DNA of 38,244 nucleotides from Anaerolineales bacterium. Its GTDB lineage: Bacteria > Chloroflexota > Anaerolineae > Anaerolineales > Villigracilaceae. Positions 7,043 to 28,405 of the stretch are shown here, piece after piece. Every line of letters begins with the position of its first letter. Within the stretch, counting starts at the first letter, position 1. Position numbers and translations under genes: made by a program. The notes beneath the pieces were generated by a model. That model was not told the origin of the DNA and ran no database searches. It worked only from the letters and a program-made list of their open reading frames with translations. The stretch is taken from the NCBI GenBank assembly GCA_013140605.1, contig JABFSL010000041.1:1-38244 (forward strand). The letters run 5' to 3'.

Positions 7043-8995
7043 TTAGTCAGCCACTTTTAAACTTATCGGAGCCATGCTGTCCAGGCCGAAGTTGCGAGAG
7101 CTGATTCCCAGCAGCATGTTATATGTGCCTGATTGGGGGATGGAGAGTTGAACCTCATATTGACCATTTCCAACTGCAACAGCCCGGTATCTTTGACTCC
7201 AGTTTCCGCCAAGTTGATTGACCGATACGATAAAATCCTCCAACCCATCCACAGGCTTTTTATCTGCCGCATCTGTAACAAGGAATTCCAGTTTGAATTT
7301 CTCACCGGGTTTCACTTGAGCTGGAGAAGTGAGTACCTTGATCTCAATTTGCGCCTGCGCACTTTCTTCATTGGTTCCGGGTTTGGCTGAGAAATCAAAA
7401 CAATGGAGCAGACGGGGGGCATCGAGCAGCAGGGCCACCTGATAGGAGCCGCCCGTGGGGATGATGACTCGGCCCGAATATATGCCGGGTGCTTCCTGAC
7501 GCAGACTGCGATCCACGAGTCTGACTGCCCTTGGCAGGGTGGCTTGGTCCTGATAGGAACCAGCGGGAGAGAGAGTCCCTTCCAAGAGGTAATAGATCAT
7601 ATTATCGGCTGGGTTCGCAATCAGCACAGCCCCGTCATCGGGCAGGGTTGCCACGGGGTTGGAAATTGCCTGCTCATTTGATTTGCCCGGGGCAGTGCGG
7701 GCGTATGGGATCTCTGTTAATTCTGGTTTCTGAGTGCTGTCCATATCAGCCAGCGCCACGGTGAATAGACTCGTTCCGTTTAGCGGACGAATATAAACAG
7801 TTTCACTGCCAAAAGCGATCTGGTCTGGGGCATTGGGGATTTCAAGGATGTGTTGAAGTTTGCCGCTGTCTGCATCAATTACATAGACATCATCCTGGTT
7901 TGGATTCAGCGCAAAGATCCAGCGCCCGTCAGGAGATGTGGTCATGCTGGTTATGCCGGGGGGCACGCTGATGGAATCCTGCAATTTCAAATCAGGCAAT
8001 GAGTACATATCAATGGTCACATCCCCGCCGTTGGCTACAAAAGCATGTTTTCCATCCACTGCGATAACCACGGCGACGGGCAGCCGCCCGGTATCAACAG
8101 TCTTCTCAACTTCAAGAGTTTCAGTATTTATTTGCGCAAGCTCATCATCCAATTCACTGGTGACAAGAACGGTTTTTCCGTCGGGTGTAAAAGCCAGTTC
8201 GTGATGCCCCCCGCCCAAAGTCAGGGAAGAAGCGATCTCCTGTGTTTTTACATCAATGACCGTGACTCCGCTTTTGCTGCCTTTCTGACTATCATTGCCA
8301 ACCCAAAGATAGCGTCCATCTGGCTGTAGAGCCAAACGCACAGGCACATCTCCCGCATCCACCCTGTCGGTGACCCGAAACGATTGCAGATCCGCGATGG
8401 CAACTTTTCCGATCTCGGGCAGGCTAACATACAGTCTGCTGCCATCAGCGCTGGCTGTCCAATCTTCGCCGGGGCTTTCCAGTAATAGTGTTGTATAGAG
8501 TTGGGTCAGGCCGCCGACTTGAATGAGCGGGTCAATGACCGAGATCGAGTTGCCTGAATTCATGGCCAGGATGAAAAAACTATTCAGGTCAACCAGGGGA
8601 CGGTTGCTTATCTGTCCCTTAAGATAACCGTCGATCTTCGCCTGACAGGCTTGCGCGTCCGGGGTGGAGTTCCTGGCGGTCAGATCCATCCATGCGGCTG
8701 GTCGGGCATCGGTCAATGGGTTGCCGCTGGCGATGTCTGTGATGCGAAAACGCACGGTGGCGTAGGAACCTTCGGCAACTTCGGCGTTTCCAAGGAATTG
8801 GTCTTCGGCCTTGACTGTGAATTCAACCTTTACGCCATCCTGTTCGAAGGATTCATAGATCGGTTCGACTTCGGGAAAGACGTTTGCCATGTTGTGGGCA
8901 GGCGTTGCAGTGCTGGCAGATTCCGCAGGCTGTGCGCCGCAGGCAGACAGGAGGAAGGTAAATATAAGAAAGGCAATAATGGAGTTTTTTTTCAT
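7043..8995 (-). CDS. Beta-propeller (YncE-like) lipoprotein, 650 aa
   Basis: A lipoprotein signal peptide (FLLSACG, Cys at about residue 19) is followed by a region at 50-150 (EPIYESFEQDGVKVEFTV, AAWMDLTAR) resembling an FixH/YtkA-like Ig fold. A seven-bladed propeller of YncE/cytochrome-d1 type spans about 160-480, with repeated DGRYLWVGN, PDGKTVLVTSE, VDGKHAFVANG and PDGRWIFALN strands. The C-terminal third has another Ig-like module (about 555-650). Such lipoproteins sit outside the membrane and often accompany redox enzymes. It is the third gene in the - strand run after the small membrane protein and the giant oxidase, suggesting a partner role. Start: ATG with AAGGG upstream. Confidence 0.8.
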   Translation of the reverse strand: MKKNSIIAFLIFTFLLSACGAQPAESASTATPAHNMANVFPEVEPIYESFEQDGVKVEFTVKAEDQFLGNAEVAEGSYATVRFRITDIASGNPLTDARPAAWMDLTARNSTPDAQACQAKIDGYLKGQISNRPLVDLNSFFILAMNSGNSISVIDPLIQVGGLTQLYTTLLLESPGEDWTASADGSRLYVSLPEIGKVAIADLQSFRVTDRVDAGDVPVRLALQPDGRYLWVGNDSQKGSKSGVTVIDVKTQEIASSLTLGGGHHELAFTPDGKTVLVTSELDDELAQINTETLEVEKTVDTGRLPVAVVIAVDGKHAFVANGGDVTIDMYSLPDLKLQDSISVPPGITSMTTSPDGRWIFALNPNQDDVYVIDADSGKLQHILEIPNAPDQIAFGSETVYIRPLNGTSLFTVALADMDSTQKPELTEIPYARTAPGKSNEQAISNPVATLPDDGAVLIANPADNMIYYLLEGTLSPAGSYQDQATLPRAVRLVDRSLRQEAPGIYSGRVIIPTGGSYQVALLLDAPRLLHCFDFSAKPGTNEESAQAQIEIKVLTSPAQVKPGEKFKLEFLVTDAADKKPVDGLEDFIVSVNQLGGNWSQRYRAVAVGNGQYEVQLSIPQSGTYNMLLGISSRNFGLDSMAPISLKVAD

Positions 8996-9130: not shown

Positions 9131-9158
9131 TGTTGGTTTCAATTATTACAAAATACCT

Positions 9159-9192
9159 GGACGGGTGTAATCAAATTTGATCACACCCGTCC
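9159..9192 (-). terminator. Probable terminator of the giant oxidase gene
   Basis: A 17-base-pair stem with one mismatch (GGACGGGTGT arm at 9159 onward, complementary arm ending 9192) lies 29 bases beyond the stop of the - strand oxidase gene. On that strand it is followed by AGGTATTTTGTAATAA, a moderately U-rich tract. Stem quality is strong, the U-tract is weak. Confidence 0.65.
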
Positions 9193-9220
9193 ATATATAC
9201 TACAAAATCTGAATTTCAGT

Positions 9221-12200
9221 CTACTTGATCGTGATCGTCACCGCTGTCACGGCGCTGCACAGCTTTTCGGTCGTGACGGTTTCGCAGGTCTTGTAGGTGA
9301 ATGTAACACTTCCGACAAATTTTGTGACTGGAGTGTATGCGAATGAGCCGTCTGTCTTGAGAACCAATGTGCCGCTGGCTGGGTTGGAGACCAGTGTGAC
9401 GGCGAATGCGTCAAGGTTCAGGTCGCGGTCATTGAGCAACAGACCCGTGGTTTTAGCCACCGAAAGCTTGCGATTCTTCGTGCCGCTGTAGCTGTCCGCG
9501 GCTGCGGTGGGCGCGGCATTGACTTTGATCCTGGCTGTAACCACATTGCTGCATACTCCACTGGCGATGTTTTCACATATTGCATAGGTGAAGGAATCGG
9601 TCCCGATGAACCCGGCAAGCGGTGTATAAGTAAACGTGCCGTCTTCATTAACGATCAGGGTGGAACCAGAGGTTAGCGTGATGAGGCTGCCAACGTTCAG
9701 ATTGCTGCCATTGACTTCACTGACGATGAACGGATCACCATCGGGATCTTTGTCATTGGAGAACAGACCGGGGGCCGCCATTGTCAGGGATGGAGTGCCA
9801 GCCAAAATCGAGTAAGAATCGCCAACGGCTACTGGAGCTTTTCCAACGTTGATACTGACAGTCACCGGAGCGCAGGCCGCGCAGACCTTGTATTGGAAGG
9901 AATCTGTGCCTGTGTAATTGACAGGAGGCGTGTACTTGAACGATCCGTTCGCATTGAGTATGATCGAGCCGCCAGCCTTTGTTTTGGCTCCGCTGGTCAA
10001 CGTGGCGGTGAATGTATCGCCGTCGAGATCAACATCGTTGACGAGCACACCAAAGGGAGCGGTTACGTTACGGATCGTATTCCTGGGCGTAACGTAGGCG
10101 TCAGACCTTGCCATGGGGGCGCTGACGTTCTTGCGCATGAGTCCCCACAGGCCTTGATAACTTCCAAAAGAGCCGAGGTCGCGGAACATGTAATCGCCAT
10201 TGGGGTCTGCGCTGGTGGAGACCACTACATTAAAGATACTGCCCGCGCCAATGCCTTCCTGACTGTTGGTCCACCAGGCGGTTGGGTTGATGCCGATCTC
10301 TGTTGAGTTATTGATGAAAGGCTCGCGCTGCCATGAATGACCATCCAAACCGTAGACGATACCGCGCGCGTGACCACCGGGAGCGATGATTCGCATACGT
10401 ACCTGGCTCGGGCCGAGCGGGCTGGTAACGAAGACTTCTGTCTGCGGATCGCCGCCAACAAGGCTATTGGAAAATGCGAGATGAATATCGGTTCTGCCAA
10501 GCATGTTCTCAAACGGGGTTTCGGGAGAGACACCCAGGCGATACCAGATCGGGTCGGCGCCATAGTTGATGGCCTTATGACCTGAATCCTGTGGGTCTTC
10601 GGGAGTGAATCCGCCTTCAGAGGCTATGTTTTTCACGGCGCAGAACAGGTTGTCAAGCGAGGGAGTACAACCTGAAGAGAAGCGTAAGTTCACATCGTTT
10701 TGAATGATGGTCACAAAGTCACGGAATTTGGAACCGTCGGCTTTTGTGACGGTGGCGGAGGCGCGTGAGCCTGGATCTTCAACCCAGGATGATCCCTGCG
10801 GCTCGACGATCAACGCACCGACCAGACCCTTGCTGGTGCCTTTAATGCGGTCAGCGGGTAACAGGCCTGTGGCACCGTATTCAACGGGAGTTGCGACCAA
10901 TTTGAAATCGGTGGTGTCTGCCGTGCTTGTGTCGGGAACCATGTCAACATCGCCCGCATACCAGATATAGGTTTTGCTCGCGCCCGGTAGTACAACCGAA
11001 GTTAGGGCGTTGCGGCCGGCCGCGAAACCATCTGCCTGGCGGATGTTGTAAGCCAGCAATTGTGGGTGGAGACCGATCACACTGGAGGGAGTCAGATCGT
11101 TATTGTTGAAGGTAATGATGCCGCTGCCGAAGACTGGGTCCACTACGAAATCCTTATGAACAATACCGGGCAGGTTGCTAAAGCCGGGCATATCGGGGCG
11201 CACGACGCCGTTTGGATCTGTCCAGGCCAGGCTGGCGGGCAGGGCATTTGTGAGGGTCAGTTTGATACAGTCACCGGCACGGGCGCGCAGGATCAAAGGT
11301 TCAATGGGTGTTTCGGGTCTGAGGCCAATCGGTTTTCCTACCGCGTTGAAGATCAGATCATCAGTGCGGACATACATCAACGCGCTTGGGTCATTGAGAG
11401 GACCATTGCCAACAGGGCCGAATTGAGTGGGTTCGCCAGTGATGGGGTCGAATGCGATCGGTCCAGTGAGGGCAGTGGCGCGATTATTGTAGACCAGGGT
11501 TCCGCCGGGCAGAACGTCTGCGGCACGGACAGCAGTCACTCGCATTTTCGCAAGCGGCGCGGTCAGCGGACATATATTATTGAAGTCCTTCTCGTTGGTG
11601 ATCACAAAAGGAGTCTTTCCAATTGGATTGTTCGGCAAAGCCAGAAGGTCAGGGATGGATTTGTTGTAAGCACGCATGATGCCCCAAATGCCATTCCAGT
11701 AATCCTCGAGCTGGGCGCCCATTGTATACAGGTAATCGGTCTTATGAGGAGTAGCGATGCCAATATCGGGCAGGATCGGCATTTCCATGATGGCGTATTC
11801 GGAGATGCCCATGAACTCGGCATCCTTCCAGCCGGAATTGCCGGTCAGAGGTTCCTTCTTCCACTTGAGGCCGTGGATCATGAAGTTATGTTCTTCTTCA
11901 TGCGCACCGACTTGAACGCGCAGGCGGATCTTGTCGCCCATGTAGACGCGCAGCAATGGAGTGGCAGGGTCGCTCGGATCAACACCTTGTGTAAGCGGCG
12001 GGTAGGCGTTGAAGGGTTGATTCAAAGCCGGGATGGCACGCGGGATGAACGATGAGAAGGCATATGCCAGATCGCCAGCCTGACCAAGAGCCTGAGATTT
12101 CGTGGCCGGGTCATAGACGCGCAGGGCAATCGGCTCATTGCGATAGTTGACTACATACGTACCAGGGTCATCACCTGAGATGGCTTCGGGACATGGCCGC

Positions 12201-15200
12201 GGTGATCCATCAGGACAGATTGGCGGATAGAAAGTGATCGATGATTCAAACCCTACAGGCGGCTTGACCCTGAAGGATGGGTTAATCGCATTCGGGAAGT
12301 CGGCATAGGAGGGTATAAGAACGCCAGCGCCATTATCGGTCATGGTCAACGCTCCGCCGCCCGCTTGATAGGCATGCTGGAAGTCGGCGAATTCAAAATA
12401 GAACTCGCGATGGCTCATATCTTTGCCGGTGGAATCCTGGATGTTAATGATGTCCGCGCGCCAGGAGGTTGGACCGCCATCATGACGTGTGCCCATCATT
12501 ACACCGGTCTCGGGGTCGCGATATTTTGCGTTGGAGGGTTCGATCAGCACGGTGGCATATAGGCCAACTTGTTGATGTGTTGAAGGTCCGTAGTGATCGT
12601 GGGTAAAGACTGTGCCCAAACCCTTATCCCAGGATTTGTTCAACATCGGGTCGGCATACCAGCGTTGGACCGTGGTGCGCGCGCCCACCCAATCGCCGAC
12701 GCCGTCGCCATTGTCATCGGGGCCAGCTCCAAAGAATGGATGGACTTCGGCTTCCGGACAGGTGTAGTTGCTGCAGCCATTGGCCTTGATGGCATGGATG
12801 CGTTCCTGAACTTCCATCGGGCTGAGTGTGCCGTCTTCGTAGTTGAAGCCGTTGGCGGAGCCGTCGGAAGCGATCACATCGAATTTGACGAGGTGGATGT
12901 GTTGACCAATAATGTCAGTGGGTGTGCGGACTTGATAGTCATCCAATTCGTAAACATTGGGCACAAGGTTGGCATGCCAGTAGCTGGCGCAATCGCCGAC
13001 GTTCAGGCGCATGACTAACGGCTCAGGAGCCTTGGTGCCATTGATCACGGGCAAGGCGTCATCCCAGAGCGTGACAATACGCTGCTGCGGGAAGTGCCAG
13101 CCGACCTTGTTCATGGTCAGGTCCAGTTGAATATCCACACCCTTGTAAGTTTTGTTCTGCGGGATGGCGCTGACAGACCAGCCGTTCGCGGCGGTCGGGT
13201 CAACGCGGCATGGATCAGCAAACGGCGCGCCGTGCTGCGGGGGCAAACCATTGGTTTCAAAGCCCAGCATGGGGCGTCCACTGGCGGCGTTGATGGAATT
13301 CGCCGCGCTGACCGGTGTGCCATCTGGAAGATAGGATTCATGCCAGAGTTCGCTATGGAATTGCATCGCGACAATCTCTGCCGGGGTACCTGTCTCAGGT
13401 ATGGGCAGATATCCGACCTTGTGCAGTTCCTTGTTAAAGTCGAGGCGGGTTTGGTATTGCTCATGGGTCACGCCGGGCTGTTGACCGCCGGTAATAATGT
13501 GGCGGGGTAAACCTCCATCGTTCAATATATCCAATACTGGGGTGGGCGGACGATGTCCGGCAACTCCGGGGATATAGAATGGGAAGCCAGGGTTGGAGGA
13601 AGGAGCAACAGAGAAAGCGTCCACAAGATCGGCCACGTTGTTCGAATCCAGATCGTACTGGCTGGAGTCGAGAACGCCATCGCCATTCTCATCGTAGGCT
13701 ACTACTGAAGCGTGGGCATCGGGCATGGGTGCCATGGCTTTTACAGGGCGGCCCTGACCTGCCATGGTGGGGGCGGAGCTGGGCAATGGGAGCAAGCCCG
13801 GGATGGCGGTGCCAGCGAGGATCTCACCATCGGGCAGGGCGCGCGCGTGTTCCAACGGAACGCCGTTTGCATCCAGTTCTGTACCTTGTTCAAATGTATC
13901 GTGAACACGCCACATTTCCCACATGCCCATGGCGAAGTGCGGGTAGAAGTGACAATGGAAAATGGCATCGCCAGGGGCCTTGTTACGATTGCCTGATCCG
14001 CCATAAGCGATTTCATAGGTGAAGCCGGAGCCTGGGCCAATGCCCTGACTGTCGAGATAATTGGAGTTGGGGTCGTTCCAGTTGTACTGCCATTGATGGG
14101 CATGCAAGTGGAAGATGTGATGTTCCTTGGGCCCCGCGTGTAACTGGCGGAACTTGATGTGGTCGTTCAAGTAGGAATGATGAACATTGGAAGGATCATC
14201 GGGATAGAGAGCCTTGTTGGCGCGCAGGCCATTGGGCGCAAGAGTGACCGGGTCAATTGTCTGATTGGTCGGGACATCAACGATCATGGCCGGGTCGCCT
14301 ACCGCGGTGGAGGTCAGGAAGAATTCTTCGTATTTGCATTCCACACAGTTGGCCATCGGGCCGACGCCCAAACGGTTGGCGATGATCTCGGAACCAATAC
14401 CGCCTGTTCCGTAGTTGATGGCAAAGCCGTCTTTGACGATTGCCAGGGCATGAGACAGGGTTGGGTCGTCATAGAATTGAGGGAAGGCCTGAACGGCAAA
14501 GATCTCATCATGGAAGATGACAGTAAATTCACGGAAAGGTTCGCTGCGGTCCTGTGCGCCATATACATCGTCAGCCTGATAGTAACCGCCGGGGAAATCA
14601 CCGCGTCCGGGACCGGTGATCATGGCGTTGATATCGGTATGAATGATCTCGCCATCATAACCAGCTTTGGGCGCAAGCAAGTTAATGATCGGTGAACCTG
14701 CTTTTCCGAAACCAGCTTCCGCCGGGTAAACTGCATCGTAGTCCAGGATCGGCTGTCCGCCGGGTGTGGTGCGATGAGCATCCCATACGCCGTTGTTGTT
14801 TGTATCGGTCAAGGATTCACCAGCGGCGGCGATATCCAATATTCCATTTCCATTTGTATCGACGAAGGCTTCCGCATCAACTGCGGCATCCCATGTGCCA
14901 TTGCCGTTTGCATCGGTGAAGGCTTCCGCATCGACTGCGGCATCCCAAACACCATTGCCGTTTGTATCCGTCAGGTCTTCAGCGGCTACAGCGGCATCCC
15001 AAATGCCATTGCCATTTGCATCGTCAAACAACTCTCCATCATCGAATATGCCGTTCCCATTTCCATCGGTGAAGTTTTCAGCGGAGATGGCCGCGTCCCA
15101 CAGGTTGTTGCCGTTCGCATCAACGAAAACTTCAGCGGCGACGGCGGCATCCCATGTGCCATTGCCGTTCGCATCGGTGAAGGCTTCTGCGGCGATTGCG

Positions 15201-17203
15201 GCATCCCAAATGCCATTGCCATTTGCGTCGGTAAATGTCTCTGAGGCAAGCGCGGCATCCCAGACGCCATTGCTGTTGGCATCCACGAAGAATTCCGCCG
15301 GTGTCGCCCAATCCATTTCCACGCGGGTGAGCTGACTGCGGTACCATTCTGAACCCCAGCCTGCGCTGGCGGGTTCAACATTGACCGCGCCGAATAAACC
15401 ATAAGAGAGTGTGCCGCCGGTACCTTCACCGCCAGCGGTTACACCCATATCGTAAAGAAGATAAGTATTTTCATATTGAGCATAAAGCGTGTAAACCGTA
15501 CTTCCGCCGGGGGAAACCAGGCTGCTGGGATTCTTCCCAACGAAGGAACCGCTGTCGCCAATGCTGGTCGCCATTTTCATGCCATTGACATGAATACCCA
15601 CATTGCGATCAGCGGGTTGTCCGCCGAGGGCGGTGGGGCTAAGCAGATTCGAAAAATGGATCTCAAGACAATCGCCAATGTTGGCGCGCAAAACGATCGG
15701 GCGAGGCCGCTTGTCTGAGCGCAAAGAGACCTGACCCGGATTAAGATTTCCACCTTCCATTTCGGTGAGACCTGTATTGTTATCAACCACATCTCTACGA
15801 AGGGCATAGATCATGCCGGCCGGGTTCCAGGCTCCGAGGCGGTTGTAATAGAACTGCTGGTCAATGGCGACCACATCTGCGTAAATAGTGCGAACACAGG
15901 AATTCGCCAATGCAGGTTGAGGAGTCAGAATTAAGGCAAGCGATGGTGTCGCCAGAAAGGTGATGACCGTGAGCGCAGACCGAAGCACAAGAGTCCCACT
16001 CCACCGAGTTGGTACCGATGAAATGCCAACTGGCATGCGTCGGGTTTTTCGTCCACCCTGCAAAATGGCCGCATCCATAAAATAAACGGCAATCAGAGCG
16101 ATCAACAAATTAACGGGCAATGAGGCCGCGCCTTCACCCATTGCGTATGGAAGCAAATCTGAACCATGATTGGTGGATATATCAGTTAGCGCGCTATCAG
16201 CACTGCCATCTTCATGACTGCCGTGAGTGGGTGCGGCAAAAGGAGAAAAAGCGGCGGCATCTTCAATTTGTGCGCTGCCATAAAAGGCTTCGTGAACCGG
16301 CACGCCAAGCGTAAATACGACCGATACGCATACAGCAAGAATGACCGCCAGCATGGGTTTCTGCATAGCGGGGCTGAAAGCCTTCTGATTATATTTTCGC
16401 CAGATCGCGATCCCCACAGTGACAGCGGCCAGAACGGCCGGTAAAGCCAGGCTGGAATCTCTTAACCATTGCAGCACAGGATATGTGTCTTGAAGTTCGA
16501 ATTCTCCGCGCAATGTGTGAAGAATCCGCATCCAGAACAATCCGCCAAATGATAGCGCTGCGGAAAGGATGAGAGCGGTGCGGCGCGTTTCGGAGAACCA
16601 GGAATTGAAAAGGACAAGCAAAGATGACTTGTTAAGTTCGAAGGAAATCTTTGACCCCGCCAATTGGGTTTCAAGTTCCTTAATGGTCAGATCCAAAAGC
16701 AGGGTGATTCCCATGATTACCAACACAAGACTCGCCGCGTCTTTTGACGCGATATACATCTGCGATATCTGAATGTTCGTAAAGTTTTCAAGGAGGAAGT
16801 TATGAAATGCATTGTCGGTGAAAAGGATCATGCGGCAAACGCTGACCTTAAACGCGAAATCGTTTCCAATCGCAGTCTGAAGACTGGTACTGGTCTCGAT
16901 CAGCACAAGCACCGCCGCTGACAAGATTCCGACGATCGCGGCTGTCAGCCCGGTCTGCAACCAGGAGTGCATACGTCCGCCTGAACGATCTATCAAACGC
17001 TGGGAAAGAGCGAGTCCGCCCCAAACCACTAGCATGATCGGAAGCAGGACGATCAGTGAATCGCCCAGCCAGTTCGATACAGGCATGGAATTGATCAGCC
17101 CGTGGTCATGCTCAAGGCGATGCCAGACATTGAGCCATACAACCCCGCCAAACGCAATCAAGAACGCAAGTACAAATTTTTTGGAAAAAGAATTTAATTT
17201 CAT
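9221..17203 (-). CDS. Giant membrane-anchored multicopper oxidase, 2660 aa
   Basis: Residues 1-200 and 201-395 are two copies of a multi-pass membrane module (PVSNWLGDS; PVLQWLRDSSLAL; LGVPVHEAFYG). Residues about 405-438 look like a signal peptide with an Ala-x-Ala-type end (TPQPALANS). The rest is extracellular: a cupredoxin-like region from 440, about ten Ca-binding-type loops (DANGNGIWDAA) at 635-810, then cupredoxin domains with copper ligands HIFHLHAHQW (about 1029), HCHFYPHFAMGMW (about 1086), GQHIHLVKFD (about 1434), FTHDHYGPSTHQQ (about 1535) and EEHNFMIHGLKW (about 1775). Further, less His-rich cupredoxin-like regions reach about 2375. Three cadherin/Ig-like repeats (2380-2660) end the protein. 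HxH and HCHxxxH pairs support a real type 2/3 centre. Layout recalls multi-domain manganese oxidases (MnxG class), but the substrate is unknown. The ATG has GAGGT upstream. Confidence 0.85.
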   Translation of the reverse strand: MKLNSFSKKFVLAFLIAFGGVVWLNVWHRLEHDHGLINSMPVSNWLGDSLIVLLPIMLVVWGGLALSQRLIDRSGGRMHSWLQTGLTAAIVGILSAAVLVLIETSTSLQTAIGNDFAFKVSVCRMILFTDNAFHNFLLENFTNIQISQMYIASKDAASLVLVIMGITLLLDLTIKELETQLAGSKISFELNKSSLLVLFNSWFSETRRTALILSAALSFGGLFWMRILHTLRGEFELQDTYPVLQWLRDSSLALPAVLAAVTVGIAIWRKYNQKAFSPAMQKPMLAVILAVCVSVVFTLGVPVHEAFYGSAQIEDAAAFSPFAAPTHGSHEDGSADSALTDISTNHGSDLLPYAMGEGAASLPVNLLIALIAVYFMDAAILQGGRKTRRMPVGISSVPTRWSGTLVLRSALTVITFLATPSLALILTPQPALANSCVRTIYADVVAIDQQFYYNRLGAWNPAGMIYALRRDVVDNNTGLTEMEGGNLNPGQVSLRSDKRPRPIVLRANIGDCLEIHFSNLLSPTALGGQPADRNVGIHVNGMKMATSIGDSGSFVGKNPSSLVSPGGSTVYTLYAQYENTYLLYDMGVTAGGEGTGGTLSYGLFGAVNVEPASAGWGSEWYRSQLTRVEMDWATPAEFFVDANSNGVWDAALASETFTDANGNGIWDAAIAAEAFTDANGNGTWDAAVAAEVFVDANGNNLWDAAISAENFTDGNGNGIFDDGELFDDANGNGIWDAAVAAEDLTDTNGNGVWDAAVDAEAFTDANGNGTWDAAVDAEAFVDTNGNGILDIAAAGESLTDTNNNGVWDAHRTTPGGQPILDYDAVYPAEAGFGKAGSPIINLLAPKAGYDGEIIHTDINAMITGPGRGDFPGGYYQADDVYGAQDRSEPFREFTVIFHDEIFAVQAFPQFYDDPTLSHALAIVKDGFAINYGTGGIGSEIIANRLGVGPMANCVECKYEEFFLTSTAVGDPAMIVDVPTNQTIDPVTLAPNGLRANKALYPDDPSNVHHSYLNDHIKFRQLHAGPKEHHIFHLHAHQWQYNWNDPNSNYLDSQGIGPGSGFTYEIAYGGSGNRNKAPGDAIFHCHFYPHFAMGMWEMWRVHDTFEQGTELDANGVPLEHARALPDGEILAGTAIPGLLPLPSSAPTMAGQGRPVKAMAPMPDAHASVVAYDENGDGVLDSSQYDLDSNNVADLVDAFSVAPSSNPGFPFYIPGVAGHRPPTPVLDILNDGGLPRHIITGGQQPGVTHEQYQTRLDFNKELHKVGYLPIPETGTPAEIVAMQFHSELWHESYLPDGTPVSAANSINAASGRPMLGFETNGLPPQHGAPFADPCRVDPTAANGWSVSAIPQNKTYKGVDIQLDLTMNKVGWHFPQQRIVTLWDDALPVINGTKAPEPLVMRLNVGDCASYWHANLVPNVYELDDYQVRTPTDIIGQHIHLVKFDVIASDGSANGFNYEDGTLSPMEVQERIHAIKANGCSNYTCPEAEVHPFFGAGPDDNGDGVGDWVGARTTVQRWYADPMLNKSWDKGLGTVFTHDHYGPSTHQQVGLYATVLIEPSNAKYRDPETGVMMGTRHDGGPTSWRADIINIQDSTGKDMSHREFYFEFADFQHAYQAGGGALTMTDNGAGVLIPSYADFPNAINPSFRVKPPVGFESSITFYPPICPDGSPRPCPEAISGDDPGTYVVNYRNEPIALRVYDPATKSQALGQAGDLAYAFSSFIPRAIPALNQPFNAYPPLTQGVDPSDPATPLLRVYMGDKIRLRVQVGAHEEEHNFMIHGLKWKKEPLTGNSGWKDAEFMGISEYAIMEMPILPDIGIATPHKTDYLYTMGAQLEDYWNGIWGIMRAYNKSIPDLLALPNNPIGKTPFVITNEKDFNNICPLTAPLAKMRVTAVRAADVLPGGTLVYNNRATALTGPIAFDPITGEPTQFGPVGNGPLNDPSALMYVRTDDLIFNAVGKPIGLRPETPIEPLILRARAGDCIKLTLTNALPASLAWTDPNGVVRPDMPGFSNLPGIVHKDFVVDPVFGSGIITFNNNDLTPSSVIGLHPQLLAYNIRQADGFAAGRNALTSVVLPGASKTYIWYAGDVDMVPDTSTADTTDFKLVATPVEYGATGLLPADRIKGTSKGLVGALIVEPQGSSWVEDPGSRASATVTKADGSKFRDFVTIIQNDVNLRFSSGCTPSLDNLFCAVKNIASEGGFTPEDPQDSGHKAINYGADPIWYRLGVSPETPFENMLGRTDIHLAFSNSLVGGDPQTEVFVTSPLGPSQVRMRIIAPGGHARGIVYGLDGHSWQREPFINNSTEIGINPTAWWTNSQEGIGAGSIFNVVVSTSADPNGDYMFRDLGSFGSYQGLWGLMRKNVSAPMARSDAYVTPRNTIRNVTAPFGVLVNDVDLDGDTFTATLTSGAKTKAGGSIILNANGSFKYTPPVNYTGTDSFQYKVCAACAPVTVSINVGKAPVAVGDSYSILAGTPSLTMAAPGLFSNDKDPDGDPFIVSEVNGSNLNVGSLITLTSGSTLIVNEDGTFTYTPLAGFIGTDSFTYAICENIASGVCSNVVTARIKVNAAPTAAADSYSGTKNRKLSVAKTTGLLLNDRDLNLDAFAVTLVSNPASGTLVLKTDGSFAYTPVTKFVGSVTFTYKTCETVTTEKLCSAVTAVTITIK
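14775..15297 (-). repeat. Tandem repeats encoding Ca-binding-type loops
   Basis: About ten tandem units, mostly 54 bases, encode 18-residue repeats such as FTDANGNGIWDAAIAAEA. D-x-N-x-N-G-x-x-D matches Ca-binding loops of dockerin or thrombospondin-3 type. Units differ in Thr/Val/Ile/Leu positions and one is shortened and altered (DGNGNGIFDDGEL). Such DNA is prone to copy-number change. Confidence 0.85.
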
Positions 17204-17254: not shown

Positions 17255-17743
17255 TTATTCAAGTCCGCCAAGAAGAAAGATCATCAGCGCGGAAATCGCC
17301 ATGTTCACCAACCCCACAATTGAACCGTCAGTCAGCATATGGGTGATCAATTCCACGCCCATATCAAGGTGCACACCAAATAAAAACCCATGAACAGGAA
17401 TACCCAGAGCAAAAGCTGCTCCAGTGAAGACCCCTAAAACAAGAACGGTGAGAGACTGCTGTGCCAGCAGAGATAAGCGGCCGTCGGTGCGTTGGATCAG
17501 CCAGCGTAAAAAAGAAATAGACATCATGACGCCGAAAAAGATAAAGACCATTGCCAGTGTTGAATCACGCAGCCAATGAAGAATGGGCAGCATCTCGTTC
17601 ACTTCATGAGCGCCCTCCAGCTCGTGCTGGACATTGACCCATAACCCGCCAATGTAGGAAATCGCGATAACGAGCGCGATCACTTTTTGAAAGCTGATCG
17701 TCAGGAAAGATGTGGAAGAATTTGATTTGTTAATTTGTGCCAT
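17255..17743 (-). CDS. Free-standing copy of the oxidase membrane module, 162 aa
   Basis: Four membrane segments lie at about residues 18-38, 55-80, 92-115 and 140-160. Sequence blocks match the giant oxidase N-terminus: LPILHWLRDSTLAM against PVLQWLRDSSLAL and PVSNWLGDS, and LGIPVHGFLFG against LGVPVHEAFYG. The gene is 51 bases upstream of the oxidase gene on the same strand, so they are almost certainly cotranscribed. A role as assembly partner, electron-transfer membrane subunit or metal-entry component is inferred. Conserved His residues (NVQHELEGAH, PVHG) in or near the membrane could bind haem or metal. The start has GAGGG nine bases upstream. Confidence 0.75.
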   Translation of the reverse strand: MAQINKSNSSTSFLTISFQKVIALVIAISYIGGLWVNVQHELEGAHEVNEMLPILHWLRDSTLAMVFIFFGVMMSISFLRWLIQRTDGRLSLLAQQSLTVLVLGVFTGAAFALGIPVHGFLFGVHLDMGVELITHMLTDGSIVGLVNMAISALMIFLLGGLE

Positions 17744-17933: not shown

Positions 17934-17961
17934 TAAAAAAAACAGGCCCCGCGGGGCCTGT
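17934..17961 (-). terminator. Rho-independent terminator after the pseudo-receiver gene
   Basis: On the - strand a perfect palindrome ACAGGCCCCGCGGGGCCTGT is followed directly by a run of eight T. It lies about 24 bases after the stop of the gene ending at 17986 and separates that transcript from the oxidase operon. The rest of the spacer 17744-17985 shows an AT-rich stretch near 17757-17795 that probably holds the promoter of the membrane-module gene; no exact boxes are assigned. Confidence 0.85.
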
Positions 17962-17985: not shown

Positions 17986-18369
17986 TTAATTGGCAGAGCT
18001 CTGAAAATCGCCGAGCACCACAGCAACCAGTTCGTCCCTTTTTGTAATGGCAAAGCGCTTCGGCATTTCGTACACATCGATCATGCTGTTTCCAAGCCGG
18101 ACAATAATGATACACAAGGCTGTCAGGGAAGGAGTGGCAAAAAGCAGATCAAGGATGTGTGTTGGATTGATATAGGTTGATTCATTCAATAAGATCACAT
18201 CAGGCTGGCTTTGCGAAACCGCATCCAGAAGCGCCAGGTCATTTGTGTATTTCGCTCCTGATACCAAAATATCAGTTCCCAAGGTGAGGAGATGTGTGAT
18301 TCCTTCCTCAAATAATGATCCATCCCCTACGATGAAAACGCGTTTGGTTGAGAGGTTCGAGTTAAGCAT
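17986..18369 (-). CDS. Receiver-like protein lacking the phospho-acceptor Asp, 127 aa
   Basis: The protein follows the receiver plan of NarL-type regulators: KRVFIVGDGSLFEEGITHLL aligns with the usual I-L-L-V-D-D-H-x-L-F-R-E-G start, and QPDVILLNES aligns with PDLVLMDI. One of the acidic pair is Gly and the phospho-acceptor Asp is Asn, and there is no DNA-binding domain. It should therefore not be a normal phosphorylated regulator; it may bind a partner constitutively. The start at 18369 is preferred because TAGGA lies six bases upstream; an ATG at 18375 is an alternative, and longer starts would run through the upstream hairpin and give an unlikely Pro-rich leader. It is followed by a strong terminator. 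Confidence 0.65.
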   Translation of the reverse strand: MLNSNLSTKRVFIVGDGSLFEEGITHLLTLGTDILVSGAKYTNDLALLDAVSQSQPDVILLNESTYINPTHILDLLFATPSLTALCIIIVRLGNSMIDVYEMPKRFAITKRDELVAVVLGDFQSSAN

Positions 18370-18420
18370 GACCATCCTACATACCCAATCCTGTGAAAGG
18401 TTGGGATTTTCGTTTTGATG

Positions 18421-18457
18421 TGAAGGCGGCGGGGGAGGGGGATTCCCGCCGCCTTCA
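18421..18457 (-). terminator. GC-rich hairpin between secreted protein and pseudo-receiver genes
   Basis: TGAAGGCGGCGGG (18421-18433) pairs perfectly with CCCGCCGCCTTCA (18445-18457). It lies 21 bases after the stop of the secreted protein gene. No T-run follows, so it may attenuate transcription or stabilise the upstream mRNA rather than terminate fully. Confidence 0.6.
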
Positions 18458-18478
18458 TGAATAAACAATTTGTACGAT

Positions 18479-21028: not shown

Positions 21029-21703
21029 TTACAATTTGGGCTGAATCAAACCTTGTTTGATTCCCGCTTCAGCCGCTTCGAGCCGGGATTTGACATGTAA
21101 TTTGTTCAATATATTCTTCACATGGCTTTTGACAGTTTGCAAGCTGATACCCAGTGTATCTGCGATTTCCTGATTTGAGGCCCCGGTCGCCATGACATTC
21201 AAGACTTCAAATTCCCTCGGCGAAAGAATCGGCTCAACTTCCTCGGGTGGAAGATCTTTTACGAGGCTTGAAAGTTTTGTAAATTCAGCCAGAAACTTCC
21301 TGGCAAGTTTGAGGGGAAAGGAGGCCTCACCCTCCAAAGCGCCGCGTACGCCACGGATAAGCCCCTTTGAACTGCTCGACTTCAGGATATATCCCTGAGC
21401 GCCGGCCTTGATGGCATTAAAGAGTTTCTCCTCCTCTTCATAGGCTGTCAGCATGATAATAATGCTTTCCGGCACTCTGACATGGATCAAGCCTGCGGCT
21501 TCCAGGCCGCCGCTGACTGGCATATTGATATCCATCAAGACCAGATCGGGGCGTAATTCATCAGCCTTTTTCAGGGCTTCAAGGCCATCACTTGCCTGCC
21601 CGACAATCTCCATGTCTGGCTGATTATTAAGCACCCGTGCCACTCCTTCACGAAAAAGTTCGTGATCGTCCACAAGAAGTATTCGCGCGCGAGTTATATT
21701 CAT
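21029..21703 (-). CDS. NarL/LuxR-family response regulator, 224 aa
   Basis: The receiver domain (residues 1-125) has the acidic pair in LLVDDHELFREGV, phospho-acceptor Asp in PDLVLMDINMP (about residue 57), Thr in IIMLTAYEE and Lys in GYILKSSS. A linker leads to a LuxR-type helix-turn-helix (about 155-220): LSPREFEVLNVMATGASNQE, IADTLGISLQTVKSHVKNIL. The start has a GAGGTGAT site. It lies 25 bases after the sensor kinase gene in the same transcript and should be its phosphorylation partner. Likely targets are the adjacent secreted protein and oxidase genes, by position only. Confidence 0.92.
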   Translation of the reverse strand: MNITRARILLVDDHELFREGVARVLNNQPDMEIVGQASDGLEALKKADELRPDLVLMDINMPVSGGLEAAGLIHVRVPESIIIMLTAYEEEEKLFNAIKAGAQGYILKSSSSKGLIRGVRGALEGEASFPLKLARKFLAEFTKLSSLVKDLPPEEVEPILSPREFEVLNVMATGASNQEIADTLGISLQTVKSHVKNILNKLHVKSRLEAAEAGIKQGLIQPKL

Positions 21704-23742: not shown

Positions 23743-23996
23743 AATGATACAGACCGGTTTTATTTTTACCACACAATCCAGACTGGCCCTGTCAGATTTT
23801 AAGGGTAGAAGATGGTTCAATGGGAGCTGCTTGATCCACATTCCTTTGACCAGATCCAACTTACTGGTTTGTAAAGAATAGGATACAGCCGCATAGTTGT
23901 GGTATATTTCACAATTGAGAATGATTTTTAACTTAATGGAGGTGAGAGGTGTGGCGCTGAAACGCCCATGCTAAGTTTAAGTTGGAGATTTTACAA

Positions 23997-24491
23997 ATGG
24001 AAACTATTGCGTATTTTCTACTTCTCGCGGGGGCCATCTTTTGCGCGTATCGCGCCACTGTATCCAAACGGATTCTATCGTCAACTTTATATCTGGCTTG
24101 TATCAGCGCATTGATCTCAGTGGTTATCTTCATGCTGGGCGCTACTCAAGTTGCAGTAATGGAACTCTCGGTGGGTGCGGGGCTGGTCACTGTGCTGATG
24201 GTGTACGCGTTGAGTGTTGTGGGCGAAGACGCCCTTGACCCTGCTTCTGTGATTCCCAAACCACTGGCCCTCGGACTCATTGGCGCGGTAACGATCCTCC
24301 TGGGATGGATGGTGTATCCTGCAATTCAAGTAACCATCGCCACAGGGGATGTTGATCTCGCGAGCGTTCTCTGGCAAAGCCGCGTGCTGGATGTTTGGAT
24401 CCAGATCGTGTTGATCTTCTCAGGTGTGATGGGCGTTTTAGGATTGTTATCTGAACGAACACCTGTGCAAACCGAAGAGGTACACAAATGA
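23997..24491 (+). CDS. MbhD/MrpB-like hydrogenase membrane subunit (DUF4040), 164 aa
   Basis: Four to five membrane helices are seen. The segment LGATQVAVMELSVGAGLVTVLMVYALSV (about residues 50-75, quoted in part by its core VAVMELSVGAGLVTVL) matches the MbhD/MnhB DUF4040 family, where a conserved Glu in the helix is part of the ion path. The C-terminal half (about 90-155) resembles MbhE/MrpB-like extensions. The start at 23997 is chosen for GGAG nine bases upstream. This is the first gene of the hydrogenase operon; it overlaps the next by four bases (ATGA). Confidence 0.8.
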   Translation: METIAYFLLLAGAIFCAYRATVSKRILSSTLYLACISALISVVIFMLGATQVAVMELSVGAGLVTVLMVYALSVVGEDALDPASVIPKPLALGLIGAVTILLGWMVYPAIQVTIATGDVDLASVLWQSRVLDVWIQIVLIFSGVMGVLGLLSERTPVQTEEVHK

Positions 24492-24799
24492 ACTTTACCC
24501 CTCTCAATATTATTCTGATCGGGATCGCAGGTTTGCTCGGCGTTGGCTTTTATGGACTCCTAATCACACGCAACTTGATCAAGGTCGTGATGATGCTGCA
24601 AATCCTCATCAAGGCCGTGGTACTGGCTTTGGTGTTTGCAGGAAAATTAAGCGGCAATTTAGGGCTGGGACAATCCGCCGCCGCGACAGTCATCGTAGCC
24701 GACACCATTGTTGCAGTAGTTGGCTTGGCGCTGGCAGTCCAAGTACGTCGTCGCTTTGGCACATTGGATGTGCCGAAGATTTCCACACTAAAAGGTTGA
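24488..24799 (+). CDS. NuoK/MnhC-like hydrogenase membrane subunit, 103 aa
   Basis: Three membrane helices have the NuoK/MrpC pattern: NIILIGIAGLLGVGFYGLLI, NLIKVVMMLQILIKAVVL, and AATVIVADTIVAVVGLALAV. In complex I the family carries buried Glu residues in the proton path; here the second helix has Lys instead (LIKAVV) and Asp in helix three, as in MrpC/MbhG members. It overlaps the upstream gene by ATGA and ends one base before the next start. Confidence 0.85.
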   Translation: MNFTPLNIILIGIAGLLGVGFYGLLITRNLIKVVMMLQILIKAVVLALVFAGKLSGNLGLGQSAAATVIVADTIVAVVGLALAVQVRRRFGTLDVPKISTLKG

Positions 24800-24800
24800 T

Positions 24801-26552
24801 ATGGCTGGCAACTTGATTCTTCTCATCATCGGAATTCCCTGGTTGGGCGCGCTCGTTGTTTGGTCGATTGGCGATAAACATGAAAAGGCTCAGCATACAT
24901 TAGCTGTGATTTTTAGTCTGTTATCTGGGATTGCCTCGCTGTTCCTTTTAGCCTTCGTCGACTCACGCTTCGCTCTTAACTTTGAGCTTGCTCCTGCCTT
25001 CGGTAACCTAACCTTCGTCCCTGACGGACTCGCCGTGACATTGACAGTCATTGCAACTGTTATCGGTTCACTCGCGGTTTTGTTCTCAGTTGATTACATG
25101 CGCGGAGAAGCACAACTCGGGCGCTACTACTTCATGGTCTTGTTCTTTATCGGCGCAATGGCTGGGTTGGTTTTGAGCGGCAATTTGCTGTTCACATTTT
25201 TCTTTTGGGAGATCACCGCGCTTTGTTCTTATGGACTGATCTCTTTCTACAATGACGATCCAAAAGCTGTGGCGGGCGGAATCAAAGCGCTCATCATTAC
25301 CCAAGTCGGCGGCGTGGGTTTATTAGCTGGCACTTTGATCGCCTATGCAAATCTTGGAAGTTTTCAAATCTCAGATGTGCTTGCAAACGCCAGCACAATT
25401 CCAGCAGCAGCACTATCGTTCATGGCATTTAGTTTCCTAATTGCCGCCGCAGCAAAATCGGCGCAATTCCCATTTCACACATGGCTGCCAGATGCAATGG
25501 AAGCGCCGACACCGATCAGCGCGCTCATTCATGCCGCGACGATGGTCAATGCGGGCATTTATTTACTGGCGCGTTTTTATCCTGCATTTGAGTCAGTTCC
25601 AAATTGGAAGACTGCCGTCATTTTAGTCGGTGTCATTTCGGCATTGCTAACTGCCTTTATGGCGCTCACCGCCACCGATCTAAAACGCGCGCTGGCATAT
25701 TCAACAGTCAGTCAACTTGGTTATATGGTTTATGCAATTGGCGCGGGCGGTGTGCTCGCGAGTCAATTCCATTTGTTGAGTCACGCTGTTTTCAAAGCTT
25801 TGCTCTTCCTCACGGCAGGTTCGGTCATTCATGCAGTTGGCACGCGCGACATGCGCCGCATGGGTGCGCTCAGCACAAAAATGCCATTCGCTCGCAACGT
25901 CTTTATCATCGGCGCACTCGCGTTGATGGGGCTTCCCATCTTCAACGGCTTCTGGAGCAAGGAACTTATTCTCGAAGTCGGCCTCGAACACTCGCCGCTC
26001 TGGGCATACATCCTCATGCTGATCGGCGCAGGCCTGACCGCCTTCTACACCTTCCGCATGACATGGATGGTCTTCTTCGGCACACAGCGCGAAGAATTGC
26101 ATGTCCACGAAACTGGCATCGCGATGAAAGTTTCGCTCGCCTTGTTATCCATTGGCACATTTACCACATGGTTATTTTTTGGCGGATTAAATGAGCTGTT
26201 GACTGCATCCATGCCTTTTCATGCAATCGAAGAAGAGTCTACTCTTGAGATAGTCAAAGCGATCAGCTTCGCACCCGCCACCTGGATCGCATTACTGGTA
26301 ATTGCTCTTGGTTTGACATTATTCTTCACTTTGAGACGAAAGGCTGCGCTTTCAGAAAGTCCACGCTGGCTTAATACATTGACTGAATCATCCTTCGGAT
26401 TTGAATCAGTCAATCATTTTGTCGTGAACACAGTCAGCAAATTTGCTGAAAGTTTACGCGCCACACAAACTGGTCAATTGAATTGGAATATTCTCGGCAT
26501 CATCGGCGCGTTATTCGTGGTGCTGGCTATGCTGTTATGGGGTGGTGCATAA
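24801..26552 (+). CDS. NuoL/MrpA-type antiporter-like hydrogenase subunit, 583 aa
   Basis: About 14-16 membrane helices are seen. Conserved ion-path residues are present: Glu in FFFWEITALCSYGLISFYN (about 115-135), Lys in IAAAAKSAQFPFHTWLPDAM, then EAPTPISALIHAATMVNAG (about 215-250), and a later Lys in LSHAVFKALLFL. This is the signature of the antiporter-like subunits of complex I, Mrp and energy-converting hydrogenases. The C-terminal extension is shorter than NuoL's lateral helix. It should translocate protons or sodium coupled to the redox module. It is immediately followed by the second antiporter-like gene with no spacer. Confidence 0.9.
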   Translation: MAGNLILLIIGIPWLGALVVWSIGDKHEKAQHTLAVIFSLLSGIASLFLLAFVDSRFALNFELAPAFGNLTFVPDGLAVTLTVIATVIGSLAVLFSVDYMRGEAQLGRYYFMVLFFIGAMAGLVLSGNLLFTFFFWEITALCSYGLISFYNDDPKAVAGGIKALIITQVGGVGLLAGTLIAYANLGSFQISDVLANASTIPAAALSFMAFSFLIAAAAKSAQFPFHTWLPDAMEAPTPISALIHAATMVNAGIYLLARFYPAFESVPNWKTAVILVGVISALLTAFMALTATDLKRALAYSTVSQLGYMVYAIGAGGVLASQFHLLSHAVFKALLFLTAGSVIHAVGTRDMRRMGALSTKMPFARNVFIIGALALMGLPIFNGFWSKELILEVGLEHSPLWAYILMLIGAGLTAFYTFRMTWMVFFGTQREELHVHETGIAMKVSLALLSIGTFTTWLFFGGLNELLTASMPFHAIEEESTLEIVKAISFAPATWIALLVIALGLTLFFTLRRKAALSESPRWLNTLTESSFGFESVNHFVVNTVSKFAESLRATQTGQLNWNILGIIGALFVVLAMLLWGGA

Positions 26553-28073
26553 ATGACACTATTGACTTTCATTGGGATGATCGTAATTCCGCTGGTTTCC
26601 TCTCCGCTTGTTTATCTGTCAGGCCGCCTCGGGATGCATGAGACAACCTTGCATCGCCGCTCCTATCTCGTGCGCGGACTGGCGCTGCTCGCCATTCTCC
26701 TCGCGTGGATTCCATTTGTGCTTTCAGTACAAACTTTCCTCACAGGCGGTACACAGGAATTCAACATCGAAGCCATTTGGCTAAGAGTAGACGGTATCAG
26801 TCTGTTAACCGCCGCCATGATTCTCACACTCGGCACTTTGGTTATCCTATTCTCTGGTCCCTATATGGCTGGTGAAGTTGGCGAAGAAAAATATTACGCC
26901 ATGCTGCTGGCAATGATCGGTTTGATGATCGGTCTTGCCTGCGCCGGTGACCTGTTCAATTTATGGGTCTGGTTCGAAGGCATGGCGATCTCATCTTATT
27001 TGCTGGTAGCTTTTTATCGTGAACAAGCCGCTTCTTTGGAAGCAGGCATGAAATATCTTGTTCAAAGTGCAACGGGGTCTGTGATGGTGCTGATGGGCAT
27101 TGCACTTGTCCTCGCCAATGCCGGCACGCTGGATATGCCCGGGATACGTGAAGCAGTCAGCGGGTCAGATGTGAACCGTTTGGCCTTGCTCGGAGCGGGC
27201 GCGTTATTTATCATCGGCTTCGGAGTCAAAGTCGCGATTGTCCCGCTGCATACATGGCTGCCCGACGCGCATTCCCAGGCGCCAAGCGGAATCAGCGCCA
27301 TGCTTTCGGGTGTGGTCATCGAAGTCGGTTTGATCGCAATGCTGCGCGCGCTTTCTGTGTTACCGGGTTTCTCGCTATCATGGGGTGTCCTGTTCATGGC
27401 TTTCGGCGCGCTGAATATGTTGTATGGGAATTTATTGGCCTTGCGGCAAACTGTTGTCAAGCGCATGCTGGCGTATTCGAGCCTGAGTCATATTGGCTAT
27501 ATCCTTTTGGGACTTGGCATCGCACTTTATTCTGGAATGGAACTTGGCGCGCAAGGCGCGTTCTTCCATCTCTTCAACCACATGCTGATGAAGGGACTCG
27601 CGTTCCTGTCCGTCGGCGCGTTGATCTATGGTCTCTTCCTGCAAAATGACTCTCACGCTTCGTTGAAGATAACCGACCTTGCTGGGACCGCGCAAAAGTA
27701 TCCATTGGTTGCGCTTGCCCTGAGCATCGCCGTGCTGGGACTCGGCGGCCTGCCACCATTGGCTGGCTTCATGTCCAAGTGGCAGATTTTTGTGGCTGGC
27801 TTTCAAACTCAAAATACCTGGATCATTGCGTTGATGGTTTTCATGGCGCTCAACAGCGTACTATCCCTCGCGTATTATGCGCCGCTTGTGAACATGATGT
27901 ATCGCAAATCACCATCCGCGCAGGTGTTGGCAGGCAAACAATTATCGCTTGCAATCGTATTACCGCTGGCGGTCATGATGTTCGCAGTGATTATCCTGGG
28001 CTTTGCTCCTCAGCTGATGGATTGGGTGACAGTCCCCGCCGCGCAAATTTTGATCACAATGTTTGGACAATAA
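26553..28073 (+). CDS. NuoM/MrpD/MbhH-type antiporter-like hydrogenase subunit, 506 aa
   Basis: About 14 membrane helices. Ion-path residues: Glu in LFNLWVWFEGMAISSYLLVA, Lys in IGFGVKVAIVPLHTWLPDAH followed by SQAPSGISAMLSGVVIEVG, and Lys in FNHMLMKGLAFLSVG. It is closest in feel to MrpD/MbhH, which sits next to the hydrogenase membrane arm. The ATG directly follows the upstream stop (TAAATG), implying tight coupling. Having two such subunits in one operon suggests two ion channels. Confidence 0.9.
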   Translation: MTLLTFIGMIVIPLVSSPLVYLSGRLGMHETTLHRRSYLVRGLALLAILLAWIPFVLSVQTFLTGGTQEFNIEAIWLRVDGISLLTAAMILTLGTLVILFSGPYMAGEVGEEKYYAMLLAMIGLMIGLACAGDLFNLWVWFEGMAISSYLLVAFYREQAASLEAGMKYLVQSATGSVMVLMGIALVLANAGTLDMPGIREAVSGSDVNRLALLGAGALFIIGFGVKVAIVPLHTWLPDAHSQAPSGISAMLSGVVIEVGLIAMLRALSVLPGFSLSWGVLFMAFGALNMLYGNLLALRQTVVKRMLAYSSLSHIGYILLGLGIALYSGMELGAQGAFFHLFNHMLMKGLAFLSVGALIYGLFLQNDSHASLKITDLAGTAQKYPLVALALSIAVLGLGGLPPLAGFMSKWQIFVAGFQTQNTWIIALMVFMALNSVLSLAYYAPLVNMMYRKSPSAQVLAGKQLSLAIVLPLAVMMFAVIILGFAPQLMDWVTVPAAQILITMFGQ

Positions 28074-28077
28074 ACCT

Positions 28078-28392: not shown

Positions 28393-28405
28393 AAATGGTG
28401 AAGCC

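Follow-up and report, generated by a model that had tools for sequence, protein, structure and literature searches.

The oxidase described here is closest to the MnxG proteins of Pseudomonas putida GB-1 and Bacillus sp. PL-12. The role of MnxG in P. putida GB-1 was established through deletions (PMC11930936). For this enzyme class, loose attachment to the cell surface has been described (PMC8218464). The putative mnxG operon of GB-1 contains mnxG, a YVTN propeller gene, two successive SCO1/SenC genes, a gene for a protein with a substrate-binding and a cytochrome c domain, and SurA (PMC11409713), and PMC8218464 names a lactonase-family propeller. GB-1 requires MnxS1, MnxS2 and the sigma-54-dependent regulator MnxR (PMC11409713). 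Bacillus Mnx depends on the copper-binding accessory subunits MnxE and MnxF (PMC5622069).

The window analysed in this study is a stretch of 38,244 nucleotides from an Anaerolineales bacterium of the Chloroflexota (contig JABFSL010000041.1). Its giant oxidase belongs to a known kind of enzyme, the MnxG-like oxidases, and carries unusual extra parts. The gene and its parts are listed below, with residue numbers of the protein.

9221..17203, minus strand: giant gene for an MnxG-type multicopper oxidase (open ORF, 2660 aa, with intact homologues)
16637..17203, minus strand: membrane module copy 1, residues 1–189, 4 TM helices (profile match, helices in model)
16013..16588, minus strand: membrane module copy 2, residues 206–397, 4 TM helices (profile match, helices in model)
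15905..15994, minus strand: ninth hydrophobic helix, residues 404–433, signal-peptide-like, with the end ALA/NSC
10124..15904, minus strand: MnxG core, residues 434–2360, collinear with NF041487 positions 1–1892
14780..15283, minus strand: ten EF-hand-like Ca-type loops, residues 641–808
14102..14119, minus strand: motif HxxHxH, H1029, H1032 and H1034 (from alignments)
13922..13957, minus strand: motif HCHxxxHxxxxM, H1083, C1084, H1085, H1089 and M1094 (from alignments)
12893..12901, minus strand: motif HxH, H1435 and H1437 (from alignments)
12593..12601, minus strand: motif HxH, H1535 and H1537 (from alignments)
9254..10120, minus strand: three C-terminal Big_9/cadherin-like (tandem-95) repeats, about residues 2362–2650 (bounds approximate)

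The start codon is the ATG at 17203 (minus strand; the preliminary description had named no strand). Two other Chloroflexota assemblies (L008 and L009) carry intact homologues of 2661 and 2659 aa that are 80% identical, which rules out that the ORF is an assembly artefact or a product of chance. The best NCBIfam model for the oxidase was NF041487 (copper_ox_MnxG, 1894 positions) with 1568 bits, and the four matches to this model followed one another in order (1–219, 221–665, 692–1385 and 1432–1892). The top PDB match was MnxG of Bacillus sp. PL-12 (9bxa; E 9e-83, and 1.7e-155 with a profile). An AlphaFold2 model of residues 434–1620 had a mean pLDDT of only 46, and its top Foldseek match was again 9bxa (E 1.4e-16). 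Pfam gave a weak Cu-oxidase_2 match at residues 991–1097, under the cut-off. The curated NF041487 cut-off of 3100 bits was also missed by the oxidase, so it is filed as MnxG-like, outside the equivalog of NCBI. This cut-off was reached in none of the 369 genomes from the class of Methylobacter luteus and none of the 400 from the phylum of the window, and it may have been set for close Pseudomonas orthologues.

The eleven His and Cys copper ligands in the four motifs are identical in all 15 aligned proteins, a set that includes the window protein and excludes the incomplete L014 and the MnxG-like paralogues. The axial ligand M1094 is Met in 13 of the 15 and Phe in two distant Chloroflexota proteins (L031 and L111). 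A separate alignment with 12 relatives showed that the paralogues retain all of the ligands and that the incomplete L014 is gapped at H1535 and H1537. The 9bxa chain shows Ala at one T1 His position when aligned, which is probably explained by the H340A mutation given in the entry title. Individual ligands were assigned to T1, T2 and T3 by the canonical motif order. The preliminary description had reported His-rich motifs in at least three separate regions. Such motifs are present, but together they make up the canonical set of four for a single T1 plus trinuclear site, and several independent copper centres were ruled out for this reason. Additional conserved His residues at 1768–1777 correspond, in the alignment, to a part of Bacillus MnxG that these motifs do not cover. 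At the level of sequence, the complete T1 plus T2/T3 ligand set is in place, so the lack of such a set, which would have refuted the preliminary description, does not apply at this level. The range of 500–1200 residues given earlier for multicopper oxidases does not fit the MnxG family, as relatives without the membrane module (L010–L013 and L106–L110) have 1692–2144 aa. The size of the core, the scatter of its His motifs and its catalytic set are thus nothing unusual in an MnxG of the P. putida type.

The additions to this core agree with what had been noticed before, namely a duplicated multi-pass membrane module, Ca-type loops and three cell-surface repeats. The ten Ca-type loops at 641–808 have a spacing of 18 residues save for one step of 15 residues, and two extra loops are located at 1171 and 1496. 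The strict loop pattern occurs 11–13 times in L008 and L009, and once or not at all in 14 other oxidases counted. The repeats correspond to three Big_9/tandem-95 stretches. The module profile matched residues 1–189 (E 8e-76) and 206–397 (E 3e-61), and these E-values are flattered because the profile contains rows from the window. A membrane model of residues 1–440 (17 rows, pLDDT 71, pTM 0.55) contains, besides short helices, long helices at 6–32, 42–73, 80–104 and 143–181 in the first copy and at 205–231, 242–275, 278–318 and 350–375 in the second. The ninth long helix of the model is formed by two pieces (404–425), which gives 4 + 4 + 1 helices overall.

When the N terminus is placed inside and the helices alternate, the inner loops have 21 Lys + Arg and 6 Asp + Glu, and the outer loops have 6 Lys + Arg and 21 Asp + Glu. 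This strong charge bias supports a cytoplasmic N terminus and an oxidase on the outer side. The end of the ninth helix coincides with the start of the core, and the core of relatives without the module is preceded by 35–65 residues, so this helix is read as a putative old signal peptide. His28 and Asp48 of the module (His229 and Asp249 in the second copy) are conserved without exception, both in a set of 17 rows and in a broader set of 16 that overlaps with it, and one Trp and one Arg are nearly invariant. All four conserved residues are on the predicted outer face. R47 is replaced by Gly in the first module copy of the window protein. A bis-His heme in the module was ruled out, because each module has a single invariant His.

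Relatives of known function were not found for the module in the sequence and structure libraries tried. No Pfam-A family exceeded its cut-off for six modules (best Htr2, 18.7 of 25 bits), and the best E for nine module members against Pfam at E <= 5 was 0.0018, in one member. The best E against PDB sequences was 0.31, and the module profile matched no chain of 9bxa. Foldseek returned no match to the membrane model at E 0.001 or less, and the best VIA-align match had a Z of 7.2, a range that this tool deems common for helical models. Published accounts of the module or of its oxidase fusion were not found either, which is a weak negative since mostly papers outside subscription were covered; the accessible parts of PMC10732223 and PMC9224936 hold nothing bearing on it. 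The transfer of electrons or substrate between the membrane and the surface, as proposed in the preliminary description, found no backing: the oxidase sequence contains no CxxCH heme motif, the Pfam scan of the oxidase detected no cytochrome family, the module is without a relative of known function, and one invariant His and one invariant Asp per module are compatible with several jobs.

The occurrence of the module was counted across genomes. Module matches came from 9 of 301 genomes of the order and 11 of 400 of the phylum, and 2 of 369 genomes in the class of Methylobacter luteus gave marginal matches (G836 and G991, about 7e-4), which were left out. Three of the matching genomes of order and phylum, G101 (7e-4), G322 and G373 (both about 1e-5), gave weak matches that were also taken off the census; by Pfam, their ORFs are two ABC permeases and one proton-antiporter-type subunit. 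Among the 25 module genes kept from the loci examined, 24 either are part of a multicopper oxidase gene or lie near one. Fourteen are fused (window, L008, L009, L028, L034, L031, L032, L112, L138, L141, L142, L143, L144 and L059). The fused protein of L031 has 2558 aa, that of L138 has 549 aa with Cu-oxidase_3 and Cu-oxidase_2 domains, and the L059 gene shows the beginning of an oxidase core followed by a run of N. The other eleven stand alone. Nine of them adjoin an oxidase gene (window at 17255, L008, L009, L029, L031, L055, L056, L057 and L137), that of L058 is two genes away from one, and that of L033, the sole exception of the 25, is at a contig end with no oxidase visible. The partners in Chloroflexota are multicopper oxidases of four kinds. 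The module was not found in any of ten MnxG loci from other phyla (L010–L014 and L106–L110, with two mnxG genes in L012) or in the Chloroflexota MnxG locus L111. The partial L068 also gave no match, and its gene start may fall outside the locus.

The census is biased, as several fused genes were first found via oxidase searches and some of the proteins that went into the profiles were fused ones. Out of sample, profile A2 recovered seven oxidase-linked genes (G293, G299, G111, G134, G177, one of G027 and one of G016), with the marginal G101 as the exception. Profile A6 recovered five (G111, two of G027, G528:C537 and G380; E 3e-8 or better) besides the two weak matches G322 and G373, which are not oxidase-linked. 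The new part of this locus is the membrane module together with its close link to copper oxidases.

Two groups of module-associated oxidases were also observed. A second class of Chloroflexota oxidases has the same module and the T1 region HCH(I/V)xxHYxxGMW, and some members are cut at contig ends (L028 7991–15493, L034 1917–9434, L032 2775–8432, L112 4842–11009 and L141–L144). For six of these oxidases, the preceding gene encodes a conserved protein of roughly 190–300 aa (L028 15523–16242, L034 1269–1886, L032 8478–9137, L112 4265–4858, L141 3058–3894 and L142 7144–8055); the one copy tested had no Pfam match. Relatives of the Tat-exported CueO/PhsA-like oxidases, with 904–923 aa, were found in L055 (2864–5626), L056 (2592–5306), L057 (9591–12311) and L058 (13623–16394). 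They are longer than the forms of 709–724 aa in L008, L029 and L031, and have module and SCO1-like genes nearby.

The neighbourhood of the oxidase gene in the window contains the following features.

7043..8995, minus strand: YVTN beta-propeller protein, 650 aa, with a YtkA-like C-terminal domain, downstream of the oxidase
9158..9193, minus strand: 16-pair inverted repeat, terminator-like with a weak T run, between oxidase and propeller
17255..17743, minus strand: single membrane module encoded on its own (stand-alone), 162 aa, with the gene ending 51 bases ahead of the oxidase start
17942..17961, minus strand: terminator-like hairpin with a T run, upstream of the stand-alone module gene
17986..18468, minus strand: small receiver-like gene, weak NarP/NarL match and no Pfam match, start codon uncertain
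21029..21703, minus strand: LuxR-type response regulator, with relatives by module/oxidase clusters in L009, L029 and L059
21729..23666, minus strand: HAMP-GAF sensor histidine kinase, with relatives by the clusters of L009, L029 and L059

The propeller gene is the counterpart of gene 2 in the mnxG operon of P. putida GB-1, and the start of its product, by eye, may be a lipoprotein signal. A profile search detected the propeller in 12 of the 13 MnxG loci whose flanks are long enough (window, L008, L010–L013 and L106–L111), the one without it being the distant MnxG-like locus L031; L009 and L014 end too early to be judged and are not among the 13. Its gene is on the other strand in L109 and separated by other genes in L012, where a second, distant propeller of 380 aa also scored with the profile. 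The propeller is absent from the other clusters examined, which comprise MnxG-like paralogues and Tat oxidases. Because of the inverted repeat between oxidase and propeller, co-transcription or read-through of the two genes is doubtful. Terminator-like sites in the region number 12 against 11.7 expected by shuffling, and the one at 17942..17961 was judged on its stem and T run only. No Rfam family matched in the window.

SCO1-like and cytochrome-c-like genes were not seen near the oxidase in scans of the window and L008. SCO1-like genes and a homologue of a 555-aa protein of L013 are next in L107, L108, L109 and L110, and both also occur in L012; the L013 protein combines a periplasmic-binding with a cytochrome c domain, as in GB-1. 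MnxS1, MnxS2 and MnxR of GB-1, by the sigma-54 label, are of another type than the kinase and LuxR-type regulator of the window. Small receiver-like proteins recur by oxidase clusters (window, L008 6012–6422, L055 1980–2360 and 7649–8041, L057 16890–17282), and an LLNE stretch, noticed by eye, may place Asn at the phospho-acceptor Asp position of the window copy. Elsewhere in the window, 23982–31499 and 31845–32396 contain a Complex-I-like operon with traits of [NiFe] hydrogenases. It encodes a small subunit, a large subunit with the motifs RVCGIC and DPCFSC, further subunits of antiporter-like and NuoH-like type, and a maturation protease of the HycI type, and looks like a group 4 membrane hydrogenase. 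Methylobacter luteus (L012 9884–20896) has two tandem mnxG genes with 87% identity, followed by a third multicopper oxidase and then the propeller.

The full gene was found only in the source genome and in G016 when 25 genomes of the genus were searched. NF041487 matched in 14 of 400 genomes of the phylum, near full length only in the source genome. The MnxG tree (midpoint root, two long branches flagged) grouped three Chloroflexota rows with three gammaproteobacterial MnxG proteins at 100/100 support, near Candidatus Methanoperedens, and placed two other Chloroflexota proteins far off. Candidatus Methanoperedens is an anaerobic methane-oxidising archaeon. Its loci contain MnxG and the propeller (L010 9854–16877, L011 2832–10236), with 56–58% identity to the core of the window oxidase. 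The source genome has a second giant oxidase, L028, of 2500 aa, with the same double module and 34% identity to the window oxidase over residues 1–614; its core is more distant, with 132 bits to NF041487. These data suggest that mnxG was transferred into the lineage and then fused to a module already used there, the second step because L028 bears the same double module on a distant core in the same genome.

The protein is probably a surface Mn(II) oxidase of the P. putida MnxG type which is tethered to the membrane by its module, and the module perhaps also handles copper. Single electrons from Mn(II), and also from Mn(III), would enter at the T1 copper and move on to the trinuclear copper centre, where O2 would be reduced to water; Mn oxide would be deposited outside the cell. 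The two 4-TM modules and the former signal peptide would fix the oxidase to the cell, with the N terminus in the cytoplasm and the oxidase outside, and the Ca-type loops and the three Ig-like repeats would form a surface arm, so that module, loops and repeats may all contribute to surface retention. The propeller protein would be an old operon partner of the oxidase, and the module may help to load the overlying oxidase with copper or to hold copper ready for it. Mn(II) is the likely substrate by homology with MnxG of GB-1. To our knowledge, no diagnostic Mn-binding residue has been described, so this reading rests on the family. O2 is the presumed electron acceptor, and its use is plausible because the source genome contains a gene for a COX1-type heme-copper oxidase. 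The copper-handling role assigned to the module is suggested, and since each module has a single invariant His, a defined metal site in it is only putative.

An Fe(II) or Cu(I) oxidase, or one for another metal, could have been misread as a Mn oxidase from its sequence. The missed NF041487 cut-off would fit this, and so would the relatives in Candidatus Methanoperedens, an anaerobe, where O2-dependent Mn oxidation would be odd. We regard another metal substrate as unlikely, given the collinear full-length match, the conserved mnxG–propeller pair and the gammaproteobacterial MnxG proteins as the nearest bacterial rows of the tree. For the membrane part, the module could merely hold the oxidase on the cell, with conserved residues serving as helix caps or salt bridges. 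MnxG relatives of other phyla manage without it (0 of 10 loci), and the helix behind it resembles a signal peptide, as though the module had been prefixed to a finished exported enzyme. However, one helix would suffice for this purpose and eight are present, the His and Asp are invariant across 16–17 rows, and stand-alone modules beside Tat-exported oxidases hold nothing covalently. A plain anchor is possible on these grounds, if somewhat doubtful. The invariant His at the outer end of TM1, the invariant Asp at the outer start of TM2 and the diversity of the oxidase partners make it probable that the module does more than anchor the oxidase.

The module might instead oxidise quinol at an outer-face His-Arg-Asp site and feed the T1 copper, which would turn the protein into a quinol:O2 oxidoreductase that works with copper only and may or may not use Mn as a side substrate. 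A conserved His and an Arg-Asp pair at the predicted outer membrane face, next to the oxidase, could form such a site, and a module common to oxidases of different kinds is expected of a shared electron donor. We nevertheless hold this to be quite improbable, as no family with a known quinone site was matched, R47 is Gly in the first copy of the window protein and a classical heme-copper oxidase is encoded in the genome. A flow of electrons from Mn to quinone was set aside as probably uphill in view of the redox potentials. Beside the preferred reading of a membrane-tethered Mn(II) oxidase, a broader idea is offered tentatively: the 4-TM module, undescribed and with His and Asp on its outer face, might be a general membrane partner of Chloroflexota multicopper oxidases (MnxG, MnxG-like paralogues, small laccase-like and CueO/PhsA-like), making them membrane enzymes that exchange copper or quinol electrons with the membrane.

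These results place the mnxG–propeller pair of known Mn oxidisers in a genus of Chloroflexota. As the pair extends from Proteobacteria to Chloroflexota and Candidatus Methanoperedens, the propeller is argued to be part of the Mn-oxidising machine. The window oxidase also represents a membrane-fused form of an enzyme class that is described as loosely surface-bound (PMC8218464), and the module census provides a concrete protein family for questions of copper handling or quinol use.

Compared with MnxG of P. putida GB-1, through the NCBI model NF041487, the window protein shares a collinear core, the full ligand set and a YVTN-propeller neighbour. It differs by 434 additional N-terminal residues that hold two 4-TM modules, by ten Ca-type loops and by three Big_9 repeats, and no SCO1-like, cytochrome-domain or SurA gene, as in the GB-1 operon, was seen next to it. 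The best solved relative is MnxG of Bacillus sp. PL-12 (9bxa), which has the same order of motifs. In contrast to the window protein, it has 1217–1227 aa and no membrane module, and acts with MnxE3F3 (PMC5622069); by analogy, the membrane module might play a part like that of MnxE and MnxF. The Tat-exported CueO/PhsA-like oxidases of Chloroflexota (L029 11725–13887 and its kin) are likewise located beside one copy of the module, but they are smaller proteins of 709–923 aa, belong to another multicopper class and leave the module unfused.
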